Positions 9,082 through 33,298 of a stretch of 33,298 nt of DNA are shown here, piece after piece. How positions within the stretch are numbered: position 1 is the first letter of the stretch; the number at the start of each line of letters is the position of its first letter. Source of the stretch: a virus; the IMG/VR virus record IMGVR_UViG_3300032299_000811, positions 1 to 33,298 of that record. One strand, written 5' to 3'. The position numbers were made by a program, and so were the translations under genes. The notes under the pieces were generated by a model. It made no database searches, had not been told where the DNA came from, and saw only the letters and a list, made by a program, of their open reading frames with translations.

Positions 9082-9307
9082 AATATTCCATTTTGTGGAC
9101 TGGATTGTGGGCATGTTCGTCGCCGTCATTGCATGGATCGGCAAGAAGGCGCATGACAGAATTGATCAGCTTGAAAAGTCGTTAAATGACCACCGCGTCC
9201 ACATAGCGTCACACTATCCCACGAAAGAGGATTTTCAAGAGGTGAAAGCCTCCCTGTTTAGGATCGAGAATAAGCTTGATAATAAGGCAGATAAACAGGG
9301 GCATTAA
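9074..9307 (+). CDS. Membrane protein with cytoplasmic or periplasmic coiled coil
   Basis: The product has 77 residues. One hydrophobic segment (about residues 6-23, VDWIVGMFVAVIAWIG) is followed by a charged coiled-coil stretch to the end, with HRVHIASHYPTKEDF and a terminal ENKLDNKADK. Similar small anchor-plus-coil proteins occur near lysis genes in many phages and may be holins, antiholins or spanin-like. The stop codon lies within the loop of a terminator. Confidence 0.65.
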   Translation: MAEIFHFVDWIVGMFVAVIAWIGKKAHDRIDQLEKSLNDHRVHIASHYPTKEDFQEVKASLFRIENKLDNKADKQGH

Positions 9308-9318
9308 GCCCCTTTTTT
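9298..9318 (+). terminator. Rho-independent terminator
   Basis: GGGGC (9298-9302), loop ATTAA, GCCCC (9308-9312), then six T. The loop contains the TAA stop of the preceding gene. It would close the long late/lysis transcript, leaving the metallophosphoesterase gene to read-through or its own start. Confidence 0.8.
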
Positions 9319-9332
9319 AATGGGGGCGGGTG

Positions 9333-10367
9333 ATGGTTAAAACTAAAGGCTCTCCAGGTTTTATAGGAGAAAAACACGCGGCTGAGGCTGTGGAAGCGCT
9401 TGAATTGCATGGAAGCATTACTAAGGCCGCAAGTGCTTTAGGTATGGGGCGCACTCCATTCAAAACCAGAATAAATTTAGCTATTAAGCTAGGAATGTAC
9501 AAAGAGCTTAACAATATGGACAATCCAAACAAATTTGCTGACATACCTGAAATTCTTAGCCGCAAGAAAATCTATTTTGACAAGCTTAAGCGTGGCACAA
9601 AGTATGTCCACAAGATCCAGTTAGCCGATGACAAGCCGTTTGTGTTGATGGCGTTAGGTGATCCACACTTAGACAATCAAGGCACGGACTTGGAGCTTTG
9701 GAATCAATGGAATGACACCCTTGAGCTTGATAGGTGGCGTGGGTGTTGCCTTGGTGATTTGCTTGATAACTGGGTCGGCAAGCTTGAGCGGCTATGGTCT
9801 GATAACCCCATGACCAAGGATGAGGCGGTGTTGCTGCTTGAGTATTATTTGGACAAATACGGGTCGTCTTGGGACTGGTGCATAGGTGGCAATCACGACA
9901 AATGGCCTGATGCTGCACGGGCTATTAAGATGCTGTTTAGTGACCTAAGCGTCGAGTATGAGACCGATGAAATGCGGATCGAATATCACACGCCGTCTGG
10001 GCATGTGGTTAAAGTCAAGGCGCGGCATAACTTTAAGGGGCGCTCCATGTATAGCACTGACCACGGTGTGAAGCGTGACGCTATGTTCAATGGTAGCGCG
10101 TATGATGTGCTTTTGGGTGGTGATCTGCATGTCTCTGGATACACGCCTGTAAAATCACCTGAAGGCTATTATAGCCACGCGGTTCAGCTTGGGGCGTTTA
10201 AGATAATTGATGATTACGCCAAGACCTGCGGCTTTGATGACAAGCACATAAGTCCAGCCGTTGCATTAGTAATAGACCCGCGCAAAGACAGGACGGACTT
10301 CACGCGGGTTCGGGTGTTTCATGATATTGAGGGGGCGGCAATAATGCTAAAGGGGTTGATGGGTTAG
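9333..10367 (+). CDS. Metallophosphoesterase with N-terminal helix-turn-helix
   Basis: The product has 344 residues from the ATG at 9333 (GTG at 9330 also possible; a GGGGGCGGG run lies directly upstream). Residues about 15-55 look like a helix-turn-helix (GSITKAASALGMGRTPFKTRI). The rest carries the calcineurin-like phosphoesterase motifs in order: GDPHLD (about 109-114), GDLLDNW (about 141-147), GGNHD (about 185-189), a His-containing segment RHNFKGRS, and GGDLHVSG (about 261-268). Such enzymes use two metals to cut phosphodiesters or phosphomonoesters. The substrate cannot be read from sequence; the HTH suggests DNA contact, so a nuclease is a reasonable guess. Its last bases overlap a gene on the other strand. 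Confidence 0.88.
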   Translation: MVKTKGSPGFIGEKHAAEAVEALELHGSITKAASALGMGRTPFKTRINLAIKLGMYKELNNMDNPNKFADIPEILSRKKIYFDKLKRGTKYVHKIQLADDKPFVLMALGDPHLDNQGTDLELWNQWNDTLELDRWRGCCLGDLLDNWVGKLERLWSDNPMTKDEAVLLLEYYLDKYGSSWDWCIGGNHDKWPDAARAIKMLFSDLSVEYETDEMRIEYHTPSGHVVKVKARHNFKGRSMYSTDHGVKRDAMFNGSAYDVLLGGDLHVSGYTPVKSPEGYYSHAVQLGAFKIIDDYAKTCGFDDKHISPAVALVIDPRKDRTDFTRVRVFHDIEGAAIMLKGLMG

Positions 10368-15316: not shown

Positions 15317-16309
15317 CTATCTGACTTGCCAATATGATGTTGGTTTGCCTGTGTATTTTGTAAGGTCAAGATTTGGCAGGTGATCCGCCACAACCTTGGC
15401 ATAAGACACAGATCCGGCGCGGGTTGTTTTAGACAGCTTCTTGCCCAATATGATGCAATCACGCTCACCCGTCATTTTAACAAGCTCATCAAGGTATTGC
15501 TTTTTTAACTCCTCAAGGTCTTTTAACTCGCTTACTACAGATAGGTATTGTGTAAGCTTGGCCTCTGTTTCTTTATCGTCAATCGTGACAATTTTGTCTT
15601 GCAAATAAGGCTCTGGGCTTGCAAGTGCCTCTTGATATTCTGCCCAAAACCTAGGCTCTGGGCTTGCAAGTGCCTCTTGATATTCTGCCCAAAACCTAGG
15701 CTCTGGGCTTGCAAGTGCCTCTTGATATTCTGCCCAAAACCTAGGCAGTTCATCAATAATTTTTGCTGTTAATTCATTGTCTTGATAAATATAGTTAAGC
15801 TTTTGCTTGTAAGAATTCCATTGATAAAACAGGCATTGTTTTTCATCTGTCACCAACATTTGAAACATGATCTGCGCCTTATAGTGTGGCTGCTCATCTA
15901 GTTCCTTAAATGTTGGATCAGTGTCATTCCTAAGCCCAAATGGACATTTAATTTCTATTAAGTGTACCTCCGCTTGGTATAATGCAAACCCATCTGGGCT
16001 GGCGCCACAAGGAACACCTGCAATCTCTTTAGTGTGGTATTGTCCGTCCTTAAAGCTCCAAACTGGCAAATTTATCTTAAGGCTCTCAAGCGCGTCTTTT
16101 TCATGGCGCTTGCCATATTCGGTGGCAATGTTGCCTTTAAACTCGTTTTCAAGCCCATTGGCTTCACGCACCATCATTCGCAACACATCGGCGCGGCTTC
16201 TGTTCGGATCAAGGCCAAGAATCGCGCCAATGTTTGAGGCGGTTACACGGCCCTTTCGAGCCGCGAACCATTCTGGGGTGTTTTGTTCAATATTGTGCTG
16301 GGTTGTCAT
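15317..16309 (-). CDS. YqaJ/lambda-exonuclease-family recombination nuclease
   Basis: The product has 330 residues. The N-terminal motif WFAARKGRVTASNIGAILG, then GASPDG (Asp106), IEIKCP (Glu119, Lys121) and the helix HYKAQIMFQM (Gln146) are the family's catalytic set. It should degrade one strand of duplex ends to give single-stranded tails for annealing by the neighbouring SSB and Sak4-like proteins. Residues 189-233 are three exact copies of a 15-residue unit (PRFWAEYQEALASPE) at the end of the catalytic core, where relatives have one. The C-terminal 90 residues are a helical extension common in phage members. Third gene of the minus-strand operon, 12 bases after the SSB-like gene. Confidence 0.9.
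   Translation of the reverse strand: MTTQHNIEQNTPEWFAARKGRVTASNIGAILGLDPNRSRADVLRMMVREANGLENEFKGNIATEYGKRHEKDALESLKINLPVWSFKDGQYHTKEIAGVPCGASPDGFALYQAEVHLIEIKCPFGLRNDTDPTFKELDEQPHYKAQIMFQMLVTDEKQCLFYQWNSYKQKLNYIYQDNELTAKIIDELPRFWAEYQEALASPEPRFWAEYQEALASPEPRFWAEYQEALASPEPYLQDKIVTIDDKETEAKLTQYLSVVSELKDLEELKKQYLDELVKMTGERDCIILGKKLSKTTRAGSVSYAKVVADHLPNLDLTKYTGKPTSYWQVR
15611..15745. repeat. Three perfect 45-bp tandem repeats inside the exonuclease gene
   Basis: Units 15611-15655, 15656-15700 and 15701-15745 are identical, each beginning CTCTGGGCTTGCAAGTGCCT on the plus strand and ending CCTAGG. The length is a multiple of three, so the frame is kept and a 15-residue helix is triplicated. Complete identity implies recent expansion or active copy-number change. 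Confidence 0.97.
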
Positions 16310-17845: not shown

Positions 17846-18127
17846 ATGGGCACAAAAACCAAACCAATTGAATGGATAAGCGGCCTCAAGCTTTATGATG
17901 TGCGGCTTAACAAAACAGAGGTTGCTTTCATGGTACAAGATGCACTTTACGGGCGCAACCTAACTGAGATTGCCTCACTTGTTGGGCTATCGTTTGGCAC
18001 AATCCATGACATTAAATGGGGCCGTCATCAAGCCATGAAGCCTCGCACCATATATGCTGTTTATGAGTATCTTGACAAGCTCCCGCCATCGCCCAGTGTG
18101 CGTCTTGCTGCGGGTGGTGATGAATGA
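17846..18127 (+). CDS. Small helix-turn-helix protein
   Basis: The product has 93 residues. Residues about 32-75 contain a helix-turn-helix: GRNLTEIASLVGLSFGTIHD followed by a basic segment KWGRHQAMKPRTIYAVYEYL. It stands directly before the primase-helicase gene, coupled by ATGA, and about 2.4 kb from the iteron cluster. It could be the iteron-binding initiator or a repressor of the divergent promoters; both are guesses. Ribosome site GAGGT. Confidence 0.7.
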   Translation: MGTKTKPIEWISGLKLYDVRLNKTEVAFMVQDALYGRNLTEIASLVGLSFGTIHDIKWGRHQAMKPRTIYAVYEYLDKLPPSPSVRLAAGGDE

Positions 18128-20433
18128 GCGGCCTAGAATGGGCTTGGCAGCATCATAGCGCTGGTCATAGGGTTTTTTCACTGCACCCCATAATCACACT
18201 GGGCGGCAATCGTGTTTGTTCATGTGGCAATCCTAAATGTCAGGCTGCGGGTAAACATCCGCGCGATTATGGCTGGGAAAACACCCCTCACATATCTGAG
18301 GACACAATGAGCGATTGGGCGTCGTTTGGCATGTTTGACGATGGCTACGGCGTTTTATTGCGTGGGCTATTGGTTATTGATGTCGATGCTAGGAACGGCG
18401 GGCTTGGCGCTTACGCGCGGCTTTGTGAGCGTGTGCCTGAGGTGATGAGCGCGGCTTATATTGTCGAGACAGGATCTGGCGGTGGTTCAAAGCATCTTTA
18501 TTTTAGTGTGCCTGAGGGTTTGTCTTTATTAGTAAAACATCCTGATTTTGTGGGCATAGATTTTAAGAGCGGGTCTCATTATGTGGTTGGCGCTGGCTCT
18601 GAACATATATCAGGCAAGCGCTATGAGGCGGTTTATGGTACGCCTGAGGATGTCGAGCCCGCCCCTAGTGCTCTGTTAGAATTACTTGCGCGGCCTACAT
18701 ACCATAGAGCGTCTTATGATGGCCGCGAAGTTGACGTATCACATGAAGATATTGTCGAAATGCTTAGCCATGTCGGGTCTTTAGAGTGTGATTCTTATGA
18801 ACCGTGGGTCAAAGTAGGCATGTCGATCCACCATGCAACAGGCGGCACGGGTTTTGAGCTGTGGAACGAATGGAGCTCTCAATCATCAAAGCATGATCCA
18901 GAGATATGCCGTCAAAAATGGCAGTCTTTTGGCAAAAGCTCTAATCCGGTCACGCTTGGAACGTTGGTGCATTATGCCAAAGAAGGCGGGTGGATCGCAT
19001 CTGTGGCGTTTGGGGTTGATCCTGAAAACTTGCCATTGATGACATTTGACACGCGCCCTATGAATTTCGGTGGCTCTGGGCTTACTGACACCACAGGAAT
19101 TGACCTTTTGCGTCCTCCTGGCTTTGTCGGCCGGTTGGCAGCATGGATGGAATCTAATTCACGGCGCAAGCGTGAGCGCCTAGCGGTGGCGACGGCTTTG
19201 GCGGCTGTTGGTAACACCATTGGGCTTAAATACACTGACAGCGCATCTGACGGCGTTACGGCTAATCTATTTGTGTTTTGCGTCGCACCATCTGCCACTG
19301 GCAAAGAGAGCTTTCAACAAGCTTTGATGCAATGCCATGAAGCGGCTGGGGTTGTATCGGCGCAGCATGGGGCCATAAAATCGGAACAAGAGATTGTCAG
19401 GAATCTAATCCGCAATCAAGCGGCCTTTTATGTGGTCGATGAAATAGGGATATTCCTGCAAAAGGTATCAAACGCTCAAAAAAAGGGCGGGGCGTCTTAT
19501 CTTGACGGCGTCATTGGCATGTTGATGAGCGCCTACTCAAAGAGCATGGGCCGGATGCCTGTAAGCGGCGATGTTCGAGAGGATGTCGAGAAGGCCATTA
19601 AGGCTGAGGTGGCCGCGATTTACAAACAAATGGACCGCGAAGGAGAGACTGACCGTCTTGTCATTAAAGTGCAGCGATTGGTTAGCCAGCTTGAGGGATT
19701 AGGGCAGGGGCTAGATAGGCCGTTTTTGTCGCTTGTGGGCTATACAACGCCTGAGACGTTTAACGATGTGGTAAACCATGAAACCGCTCAAAACGGGTTT
19801 ATTCGGCGGTCAATCCTGTTTCGTGAATATGAGAGCGCGCCGCCCTATAAGCGCGGGTTTTCAAAAACGCCAATGCCCTTTGAGATGCAAATGACCATGA
19901 AGCAGCTATACGGCGCAGGATCGAGCGCTGAAGGCCGTATAGAGCATTATGGGGAGCGCATTGTTATCCCAAGCGCTGACGGCGTGGAAGATCTTCTTGA
20001 CGCCATTGTGAGCGAGCTTGACGACCTGGCTGACCATCACAAGAACACCACGGGGCTAGAGGCTTTAGCCCTAGGGGCGTTTGAGATTGTCAAGAAGGTG
20101 GCTCTTATCTTAGCCGCTCCTGAGGGCCTTAGGACCATTGAGCATGTGCGCTGGGCTTATGCTTTGGTTAAAAAAGACATTGAGGAAAAATCACGCCTTG
20201 CGGTTGCCAATGATTTAGCCACGCCAAAAAACAAAGCGCTCCAAGACAAGATTATAGACATTTGCACAGGCGACGGCGAAAAGATTGGCACTATCAAAAA
20301 CCGCCTTCGCAAATACCAGGCTAAAGATGTGGATCAAGCCCTTGACGATTTGGTCAAATCTGGGCTATTGTCTAAAGTTGAGCGCATTAAGCCATCCAAC
20401 AAGACAGCTTATAGCGTTTATTGTGCCGTGTGA
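18124..20433 (+). CDS. Primase-polymerase / helicase fusion
   Basis: The product has 769 residues. Residues 1-190 are a prim-pol domain: a Cys-rich site CSCGNPKCQAAGKH (32-45), the metal-binding VIDVDARNGG (Asp86, Asp88), TGSGGGSKHLYFS and GIDFKSGSHYVVGAGS. Residues about 205-290 fit the PriCT-2 domain (WVKVGMSIHHATGG, then KWQSF). Residues 335-700 are a DUF3987/D5-like ATPase with P-loop APSATGKES (about 388-396) and VVDEIG as Walker B. It should make primers and unwind DNA at the adjacent origin. With no DNA polymerase gene in the genome, it probably hands primers to the host replicase. Confidence 0.88.
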   Translation: MSGLEWAWQHHSAGHRVFSLHPIITLGGNRVCSCGNPKCQAAGKHPRDYGWENTPHISEDTMSDWASFGMFDDGYGVLLRGLLVIDVDARNGGLGAYARLCERVPEVMSAAYIVETGSGGGSKHLYFSVPEGLSLLVKHPDFVGIDFKSGSHYVVGAGSEHISGKRYEAVYGTPEDVEPAPSALLELLARPTYHRASYDGREVDVSHEDIVEMLSHVGSLECDSYEPWVKVGMSIHHATGGTGFELWNEWSSQSSKHDPEICRQKWQSFGKSSNPVTLGTLVHYAKEGGWIASVAFGVDPENLPLMTFDTRPMNFGGSGLTDTTGIDLLRPPGFVGRLAAWMESNSRRKRERLAVATALAAVGNTIGLKYTDSASDGVTANLFVFCVAPSATGKESFQQALMQCHEAAGVVSAQHGAIKSEQEIVRNLIRNQAAFYVVDEIGIFLQKVSNAQKKGGASYLDGVIGMLMSAYSKSMGRMPVSGDVREDVEKAIKAEVAAIYKQMDREGETDRLVIKVQRLVSQLEGLGQGLDRPFLSLVGYTTPETFNDVVNHETAQNGFIRRSILFREYESAPPYKRGFSKTPMPFEMQMTMKQLYGAGSSAEGRIEHYGERIVIPSADGVEDLLDAIVSELDDLADHHKNTTGLEALALGAFEIVKKVALILAAPEGLRTIEHVRWAYALVKKDIEEKSRLAVANDLATPKNKALQDKIIDICTGDGEKIGTIKNRLRKYQAKDVDQALDDLVKSGLLSKVERIKPSNKTAYSVYCAV

Positions 20434-20474: not shown

Positions 20475-20565
20475 GCATAATAGTGCATAATAGTAAGAGC
20501 TTACTATTTTGCTATCCCTTACGGAATAAAGCTTTGAGGGGCATAATAGCATAATAGCAAAATAG
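20475..20565 (+). repeat. Iteron cluster A (six copies of GCATAATAG or close variant)
   Basis: Copies start at 20475, 20485, 20504 (inverted, CTATTTTGC), 20541, 20549 and 20557 (GCAAAATAG). The last three overlap by one base, giving an 8-bp period. The copies at 20485 and 20504 form a 13-bp arm dyad around AG. Cluster B is its mirror image. Confidence 0.9.
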
Positions 20566-20585
20566 TTTAGAATCAAAATGAAACC

Positions 20586-20594
20586 TGTGGATAA
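20586..20594 (+). promoter_or_regulatory. DnaA box
   Basis: TGTGGATAA is the exact reverse complement of the consensus TTATCCACA. It lies between iteron cluster A and the AT-rich core, a common origin layout, and suggests that host DnaA takes part. Confidence 0.75.
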
Positions 20595-20640
20595 CCTTAA
20601 TAGGTATCTGATAGGGCTCTACAGATACGCCTATATGGCC

Positions 20641-20710
20641 TTAATCTATATATAGAGATATAGAGAGGGAGATCTATTATATAATATATAATACATTATA
20701 TCAGTGGATT
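20641..20710. other. AT-rich core, likely unwinding element
   Basis: Long runs of alternating A and T (CTATATATAGAGATATAGAG, then ATTATATAATATATAATACA). The geometric centre of the two iteron clusters (20673.5) falls inside it. Confidence 0.65.
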
Positions 20711-20713
20711 TTT

Positions 20714-20736
20714 AAGGCCTACGGGTCTTTTTTTGT
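20714..20736 (+). terminator. Terminator with UACG tetraloop
   Basis: AAGGCC (20714-20719), loop TACG, GGTCTT (20724-20729), then a T run. C(UACG)G is an extra-stable tetraloop. It would stop transcripts from the primase-helicase gene inside the origin. Confidence 0.7.
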
Positions 20737-20781
20737 GCCTATAAGTTGACGTAGGGGAAAGCGTCTAAAACAAGTATATAA

Positions 20782-20872
20782 CTATTATGTTATTATGCTA
20801 TTATGCTCATCTAGCCCTTATGGTATAAGGCTTTGCATAATAGTAAGAGTTTACTATTATGCACTATTATGC
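20782..20872 (-). repeat. Iteron cluster B (mirror of cluster A)
   Basis: Copies lie at 20782 (CTATTATGT), 20790 (TTATTATGC), 20798 (CTATTATGC), 20835 (GCATAATAG, opposite orientation), 20854 and 20864. For every copy, its position and that of its partner in cluster A add to the same sum (41,347), so spacing and orientation are exactly mirrored over 91 bases without a gap. Confidence 0.9.
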
Positions 20873-20915
20873 GTTTTTGGGTATAAAATGGCTTTATGTT
20901 GTTTATGGCACAAAA

Positions 20916-20945
20916 AAAGACCCCGCGTTATGCAGGGTCTTTCTT
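20916..20945. terminator. Bidirectional terminator
   Basis: AAAGACCC (20916-20923) pairs with GGGTCTTT (20935-20942), with an inner GC/GC pair around loop GTTAT. There is an A run on the left and T-rich sequence on the right, so it can end transcripts from either side: plus-strand from the origin and minus-strand from the accessory genes. Confidence 0.75.
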
Positions 20946-32843: not shown

Positions 32844-33298
32844 GTGTATCAAGAAGGTCAGACAGCAATAAACCCAAAGACAGGCCAAAGAGTCGTGTTT
32901 CGTAATGGCCAATGGGTTATTGGTACATCAAGCGCAACGGTTGCTAAGCCGTTAAATTCCGATGAGCAAAAAGCACTGATTAAAAAAAGAGAAGAAGGGG
33001 AAAGACTTCAAAAAACGGCACAAAGGTTAAGTGTTGTTGAAAAGTATGTAAACGAAGGGGTTAATACAGGGCCTTTATGGGGCGACCCTACGCAAAAAGC
33101 AAGTTTTACGCATTTAGCGCCTTATTTCAAAGGTCCAAAACTACAAGAAATTGATGCTATCAATAATGCTCTTGCGCCACAGCAACGTGTTGAGGGTTCT
33201 GGCGCTACATCCGATATTGAGTATCGCGGAATGCAATTATCTTTGCCTTCCACTAATTTGTTACCGCAAACCAACAAAAAGTTGATAAAGGAAATAAA
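32844..33298 (+). CDS. Ejection-type virion protein, N-terminal part (continues at base 1)
   Basis: GTG start at 32844 with GGAG eight bases upstream. The frame is open to the window end and continues without shift at base 2 of the window, giving 240 residues in all. The beginning (MYQEGQTAINPKTGQRVVFR, NGQWV) is a short beta motif common at the start of phage ejection-associated proteins. Then follow charged helices and ALAPQQRVEGSGATSDIEYR, a conserved block in relatives. The last 123 bases here are the repeat copy of the window start. Confidence 0.78.
   Translation, partial: MYQEGQTAINPKTGQRVVFRNGQWVIGTSSATVAKPLNSDEQKALIKKREEGERLQKTAQRLSVVEKYVNEGVNTGPLWGDPTQKASFTHLAPYFKGPKLQEIDAINNALAPQQRVEGSGATSDIEYRGMQLSLPSTNLLPQTNKKLIKEI
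33176..33298. repeat. Terminal direct repeat, right copy
   Basis: Identical to bases 1-123; the overlap that closes the circle. Confidence 0.95.

Follow-up and report, generated by a model that had tools for sequence, protein, structure and literature searches.

The 33,298-bp virus record analysed here, the whole of which is referred to as the window, carries directly behind its primase gene two mirror-image arrays of a 9-bp iteron which very probably form a bidirectional theta origin. Judging from the sequence, the modelled folds and the analogy with known systems, the winged helix of the primase would bind the GCATAATAG iterons and two opposed MCM-like rings would be loaded there. This reading of the arrays as an origin with mirrored initiator sites is supported because the same layout recurs next to the same initiator gene with other words, and because it matches the origins of PICI/SaPI elements.

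The record has a 123-bp terminal direct repeat (1-123 and 33176-33298), and because of this the genome is probably a circular or terminally redundant molecule of 33,175 bp. A Pfam/PHROG scan of its proteins identified a P22-like portal, a capsid protein and terminase, as well as a recombination module with Sak4-like, SSB-like and YqaJ exonuclease proteins. The YqaJ exonuclease gene contains an in-frame tandem repeat of 45 nt in three copies (FWAEYQEALASPEPR x3, 15535-15772). The array occupies a non-coding convergent gap with the 769-aa primase gene on one side, the last base of its stop codon being 42 nt from the first iteron, and minus-strand ORFs on the other. The features of this region are as follows.

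17846..18127, plus strand: small HTH protein of 93 aa, its stop overlapping the primase start
18124..20433, plus strand: initiator candidate of 769 aa, predicted PrimPol, PriCT-2, DUF3987 (MCM-like AAA+) and C-terminal winged helix
20475..20565, plus strand: left iteron arm, strand order ++-+++ (sites 20475+, 20485+, 20504-, 20541+, 20549+, 20557+)
20475..20493, plus strand: left outer iteron pair, two exact copies of GCATAATAG spaced 10 bp
20504..20512, minus strand: left inverted iteron GCAAAATAG, a hairpin-capable palindrome with site 20485
20541..20565, plus strand: left inner iteron triplet, tandem at 8 bp
20566..20781, no strand: centre, 33% GC overall (window 47%)
20586-20594, minus strand: perfect DnaA box TTATCCACA
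20640-20715: candidate melting element, 21% GC
20714..20734, plus strand: intrinsic terminator within the centre, ending the primase transcript (AAGGCC-UACG-GGTCTT-TTTTT)
20782..20872, minus strand: right iteron arm, the left arm mirrored, reading ---+-- on the plus strand (sites 20782-, 20790-, 20798-, 20835+, 20854-, 20864-)
20782..20806, minus strand: right inner iteron triplet, tandem at 8 bp
20826..20835, minus strand: copy of the element CAAWGRCTTA with one mismatch
20835..20843, plus strand: right inverted iteron, a 13-bp perfect palindrome with 20854-
20854..20872, minus strand: right outer iteron pair, spaced 10 bp
20913..20945, no strand: intergenic inverted repeat with A and T runs

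The original prediction described twelve copies with one- or two-base variants in two 91-bp clusters, each copy having an equidistant partner of opposite orientation. There are indeed twelve sites, six per 91-bp arm, but eight of these are exact, four have one mismatch and none has two. The mirror arrangement was borne out in full, with coordinate sums of 41,347 for all six pairs. As a whole, the structure is an inverted repeat of 93 nt with arms 80% complementary and separated by 212 nt. Thirty seven-mer pairs lie on the mirror axis (at most 7 in 100 shuffles), and when 6+6 sites were placed at random in 20,000 trials, six pairs never shared one axis, the maximum of five being reached twice. 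Between the arms, identity is 49/52 in the repeat columns and 23/39 (59%) in the spacer columns; the spacers are thus less alike than the repeats, as had been noted, although they remain above the chance level of 29% (P = 8e-5). Such exact symmetry would also result if one arm had recently been duplicated in inverted orientation or the two had been homogenised. Six sites per arm would fit a ring of six; this is only suggestive, and site counts differ among relatives.

The AT-rich centre that had been described was confirmed, its GC content falling to 21% in the candidate melting element. Terminator-like hairpins with T runs are also present between the arms in relatives, and the inverted repeat at 20913..20945 likely acts as a terminator in both directions at the end of the intergenic gap between the convergent genes. 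A perfect inverted repeat of 17 nt (GGGTCTTTTTTTGTGCC, 20723-20739 and 20907-20923) flanks the right arm and connects the two terminator tails. The perfect DnaA box reported in the centre is present; however, a role for it is unsupported, as exact boxes occur only four times in 85 downstream regions, at least one (CASP1) within an annotated gene, and it was rejected as a conserved part. The GC-skew peak anticipated near 20.6 kb did not appear as an origin mark, since skew tracks gene direction here.

A profile built from eight primases gave 80 viral loci and 80 loci on bacterial or archaeal contigs, the latter mostly partial matches; in a plasmid search the matches were likewise partial and none reached 80% primase coverage. 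None of these relatives is close, with primase identity reaching about 53% in the best complete ones and lying at 46-53% in those that share the layout. The exception is L001, a 5-kb contig with an identical gene, which stops within the origin centre at the terminator stem (L001 4700-5058; window 20717) and may represent an assembly break at that stem. Searching IMG/VR for the window's arrangement by exact word gave no match. Arrays were called from any over-represented 8-mer, a procedure blind to strand order and symmetry, and the words found after the primase differ between loci.

L029: CAGAAATA
L022: ACAAATAG, strand order ++++++ / ---+--
L055: GGACATAG
L019: AGATAGTC
L085: TGCTTTGT
L020 and L027: CAGAATAG
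L010 (Pseudomonas phage Torfinnsbu): TAGCTTTG
L056: GGATATNC (caller 8-mer GGATATAC), ++-+++ / ---+--, identical to the window
L087: ATACACA (caller 8-mer ATACACAG), +++-++ / --+---
L070: strand order ++-++ / --+--
Vibrio phage vB_VnaS-L3: ++-++ / --+-, upstream of the primase
pYD21-A: ++++ / --+-, upstream of the primase

Among these relatives a common grammar recurs with different words, in which mirrored arms, with steps of 10-12 bp between the outer repeats and 8-9 bp between the inner tandem ones, surround a centre that is AT-rich or bears a terminator; besides L056 and L087, it is seen in L029, L022, L020, L027, L070, L010 and L082. Spacings between same-strand neighbours peak at 8 bp (28 cases), with 9 (11), 10 (15) and 11 bp (12) also represented. 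A strict criterion required at least six sites and a tandem pair on each strand. Of 69 dereplicated loci, 13 have such an array downstream of their primase, compared with 2 among 821 control windows and none in 207 shuffles (P = 1e-13). The two control matches look genuine, the structure lying 1.7 kb further downstream in L082 and upstream in L012. The remaining 56 of the 69 relatives failed this test; some of them have weaker versions of the array (L009, L048, L061, L096, L099), while others have a GC-rich gene directly after the primase. Same-strand caller lists in L049, L048 and L059 were set aside, as they look like in-frame coding repeats; L049 also has a long, probably coding, tandem array of 12-bp TGGCTATG units (9228-9408).

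With refined sites, 61 of 81 strand pairs are mirrored (P = 3e-6); an earlier test on raw calls was weaker (47/74, P = 0.013, under a null that assumes independent pairs). A polarity test with ATAG[TC] over all loci pointed in the right direction (223 vs 94 pairs), but was dropped because control words, GATA[TC] among them, also showed a skew. The suggestion that the spacing itself is under selection was not supported: over 14 loci, the gap between outer and inner clusters on the left shows no correlation with that on the right (rho 0.12, P = 0.68), and the two are equal only in the window and L029. Exact equal spacing was accordingly rejected as a family rule; what recurs is the strand order with steps of 8-9 and 10-12 bp. 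Since the arm gaps are uncorrelated between sides, the window, with its exact symmetry, is an extreme example rather than the rule.

Some of the relatives also share a second element, CAAWGRCTTA: the 69 downstream regions contain 14 exact copies where 0.33 would be expected, a figure inflated because the pattern was defined after several of those loci had been seen; in the rest of the loci there are 10 copies against 3.4 expected. It occurs downstream of the primases of L019, L021, L032, L034, L040, L046, L002, L061, L062, L084 and L087. In L021 its copies on either side face opposite ways, as they do in L019 and L040 if one mismatch is allowed. Because its sequence is kept, unlike that of the iterons, a host-factor or priming site would suit it.

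The candidate initiator has Pfam matches to Prim-Pol (PF09250), PriCT-2 and, marginally, DUF3987, and matches phrog_3022. In its AlphaFold (AF2) model (pLDDT 89), residues 332 to 691 align with MCM ATPase domains (Z 17.9, rmsd 3.5, 265 residues), the N-terminus matches the primpol of pRN1 ORF904, and the last 85 residues, modelled alone, are predicted to form a winged helix (Z 10.9). The DUF3987 part is thus predicted to be an MCM-like AAA+ ring helicase; a PDB sequence search with a 73-sequence profile found no match and only the fold comparison worked. Over 23 loci, iterons tend modestly to be more similar where the C-terminal regions are more identical (rho 0.38, Mantel P = 0.007); the correlation is equal for the preceding residues 600-690 (rho 0.38), lower for the helicase and PriCT-2 (rho 0.27) and absent for the PrimPol (rho 0.13, P = 0.18).

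The 93-aa HTH protein, which has no match in Pfam, PHROG or NCBIfam, is probably an operon regulator, and comparable small HTH ORFs lie upstream of the primase in most relatives. It is the less likely iteron binder, the primase's own winged helix being the likelier one, because a search ahead of the primase revealed no comparable ORF in the array-bearing L070, L010 and L082; as a general iteron binder the upstream HTH protein is therefore disfavoured.

In the proposed mechanism, the 769-aa initiator would bind the GCATAATAG iterons via its C-terminal winged helix and, because the arms are mirror images, two initiator assemblies would face each other over the AT-rich centre. Their MCM-like AAA+ parts would close into a pair of opposed rings, which would melt the centre and then travel in opposite directions, with the PrimPol domain making the first primers for the host polymerase. 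The original prediction of an origin firing in both directions from two identical complexes stands as regards the mirrored arrays, which recur beside the initiator gene and match PICI/SaPI; binding and direction we infer.

Rep_3-type iteron plasmids usually carry direct repeats on one side. Like them, the window has repeats beside an AT-rich element; unlike them, its repeats are on both sides, inverted and 8-12 bp apart, there is no Rep_3 match in the primase or the HTH protein (Pfam, PHROG, NCBIfam), and the initiator candidate is itself a predicted helicase. The layout had been called unusual, and it does differ from one-sided direct-repeat iterons, but this needs qualification because an AT-rich region between two sets of iterons is already known from PICI/SaPI origins. 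Those of PICI are located 3′ of pri-rep, have this two-sided arrangement and were tested for plasmid maintenance (Fillol-Salom, 2018; PMC6092414), and in 2018 they were considered to share it with "no other known bacterial replicon" (PMC6092414). In SaPI work as cited in PMC7581432, binding by Rep is reportedly in the form of two hexamers. The C-terminal domain of Cch2, taken by itself, binds its putative origin. The window array is similarly placed directly 3′ of the initiator gene, and where the PICI/SaPI initiator reads iterons by its C-terminal domain, that of the window has a predicted C-terminal winged helix. The differences are that PICI satellites lack virion genes of their own, whereas the window is a complete tailed phage with terminase, P22-like portal and capsid genes; that its primase is an archaeo-eukaryotic PrimPol fused to a DUF3987 MCM-like domain; and that its arms read ++-+++ with 8-9 and 10-12 bp steps, the PICI layout being known here from the papers' descriptions. 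The sequence evidence supports an origin with this organisation, which is thus broader in occurrence than known before, in a family of phages with a PrimPol-MCM-winged-helix initiator. Phage P4 alpha, as cited in PMC4234260, is a helicase-primase-winged-helix initiator reading origin repeats, but its primase is Toprim and that of the window PrimPol PF09250.

In the Sulfolobus plasmid pRN1, a stem-loop downstream of the PrimPol-helicase gene is required, as is the symmetry of its stem; a similar stem-loop was noted in Bordetella phage BPP-1/BIP-1, and for pRN1 a pair of hexamers and forks running both ways were proposed, with binding motifs "not yet identified" (Berkner, 2014; PMC4234260). As in pRN1, the window has a small, probably DNA-binding regulator, a gene for a PrimPol (PF09250) with helicase and predicted C-terminal winged helix, and then an inverted structure at most ~170 bp downstream. 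It is nevertheless unlikely that the window has an origin of this type, in which the arms would extrude as a cruciform or fold single-stranded and the initiator would read the structure, leaving the repeats unread. Folding of the single strand is much stronger than in shuffles for the window (z -9.3) and for most relatives, but it does not discriminate between the models, since mirrored iterons would fold in either case; Torfinnsbu has arrays while folding no better than shuffles (z -1.0). The pRN1 type has a stem-loop of ~100 nt and an SF3 helicase; the window's helicase part aligns best to MCM AAA+, although an SF3 fold may nonetheless apply. The window's arms are longer, with six iterons each, and would form a stem with 20% mismatches and a loop of 212 nt. 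In several relatives the gap on one side is tens of bases longer than on the other, which puts long stems out of register while the strand order is kept. The stem arms described in pRN1 and BPP-1 themselves hold about two 9-bp repeats each, TGTCCA occurring twice, 9 bp apart, in pRN1 (L178 5060-5210; tandem repeat P 0.005) and GTTTGCCTC twice, 9 bp apart, in BPP-1 (L177; P 0.0008).

It is very unlikely that the array serves as an operator or other regulatory site bound by a transcription factor of the phage, for instance the 93-aa HTH protein, whose gene adjoins in most relatives: the promoter-like matches in the centre show no excess (5 vs a shuffle mean of 3.1), the site lies between convergent genes, its exact word is absent elsewhere in the window, and the three array-bearing loci named above speak against it. 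Iteron arrays also act as plasmid centromeres, yet a centromere, pac site or attachment site is the most improbable reading here, as no ParA, ParB or integrase was found among the window proteins covered by a partial scan, the terS start is ~2.4 kb away and the conserved neighbour is the primase.

If the array is the iteron-read origin proposed, a two-sided design once held peculiar to PICI satellites (PMC6092414) extends to complete tailed phages of a wide family in which the initiator is predicted to combine primase, MCM-like ring and winged helix in one chain. A general origin code can be put forward only tentatively, and is rather doubtful, in which a PrimPol-MCM-winged-helix protein would use six iterons per arm, one per subunit, to form two head-to-head rings without a loader, the winged helix and the word changing together and the "stem-loops" of pRN1 and BPP-1 being compact versions. 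The tandem repeats within those stem arms are suggested to be the origin binding motifs of pRN1 and BPP-1, and the one grammar with its many words would offer natural matched pairs of initiator and origin for studying loader-free, two-way loading of ring helicases.
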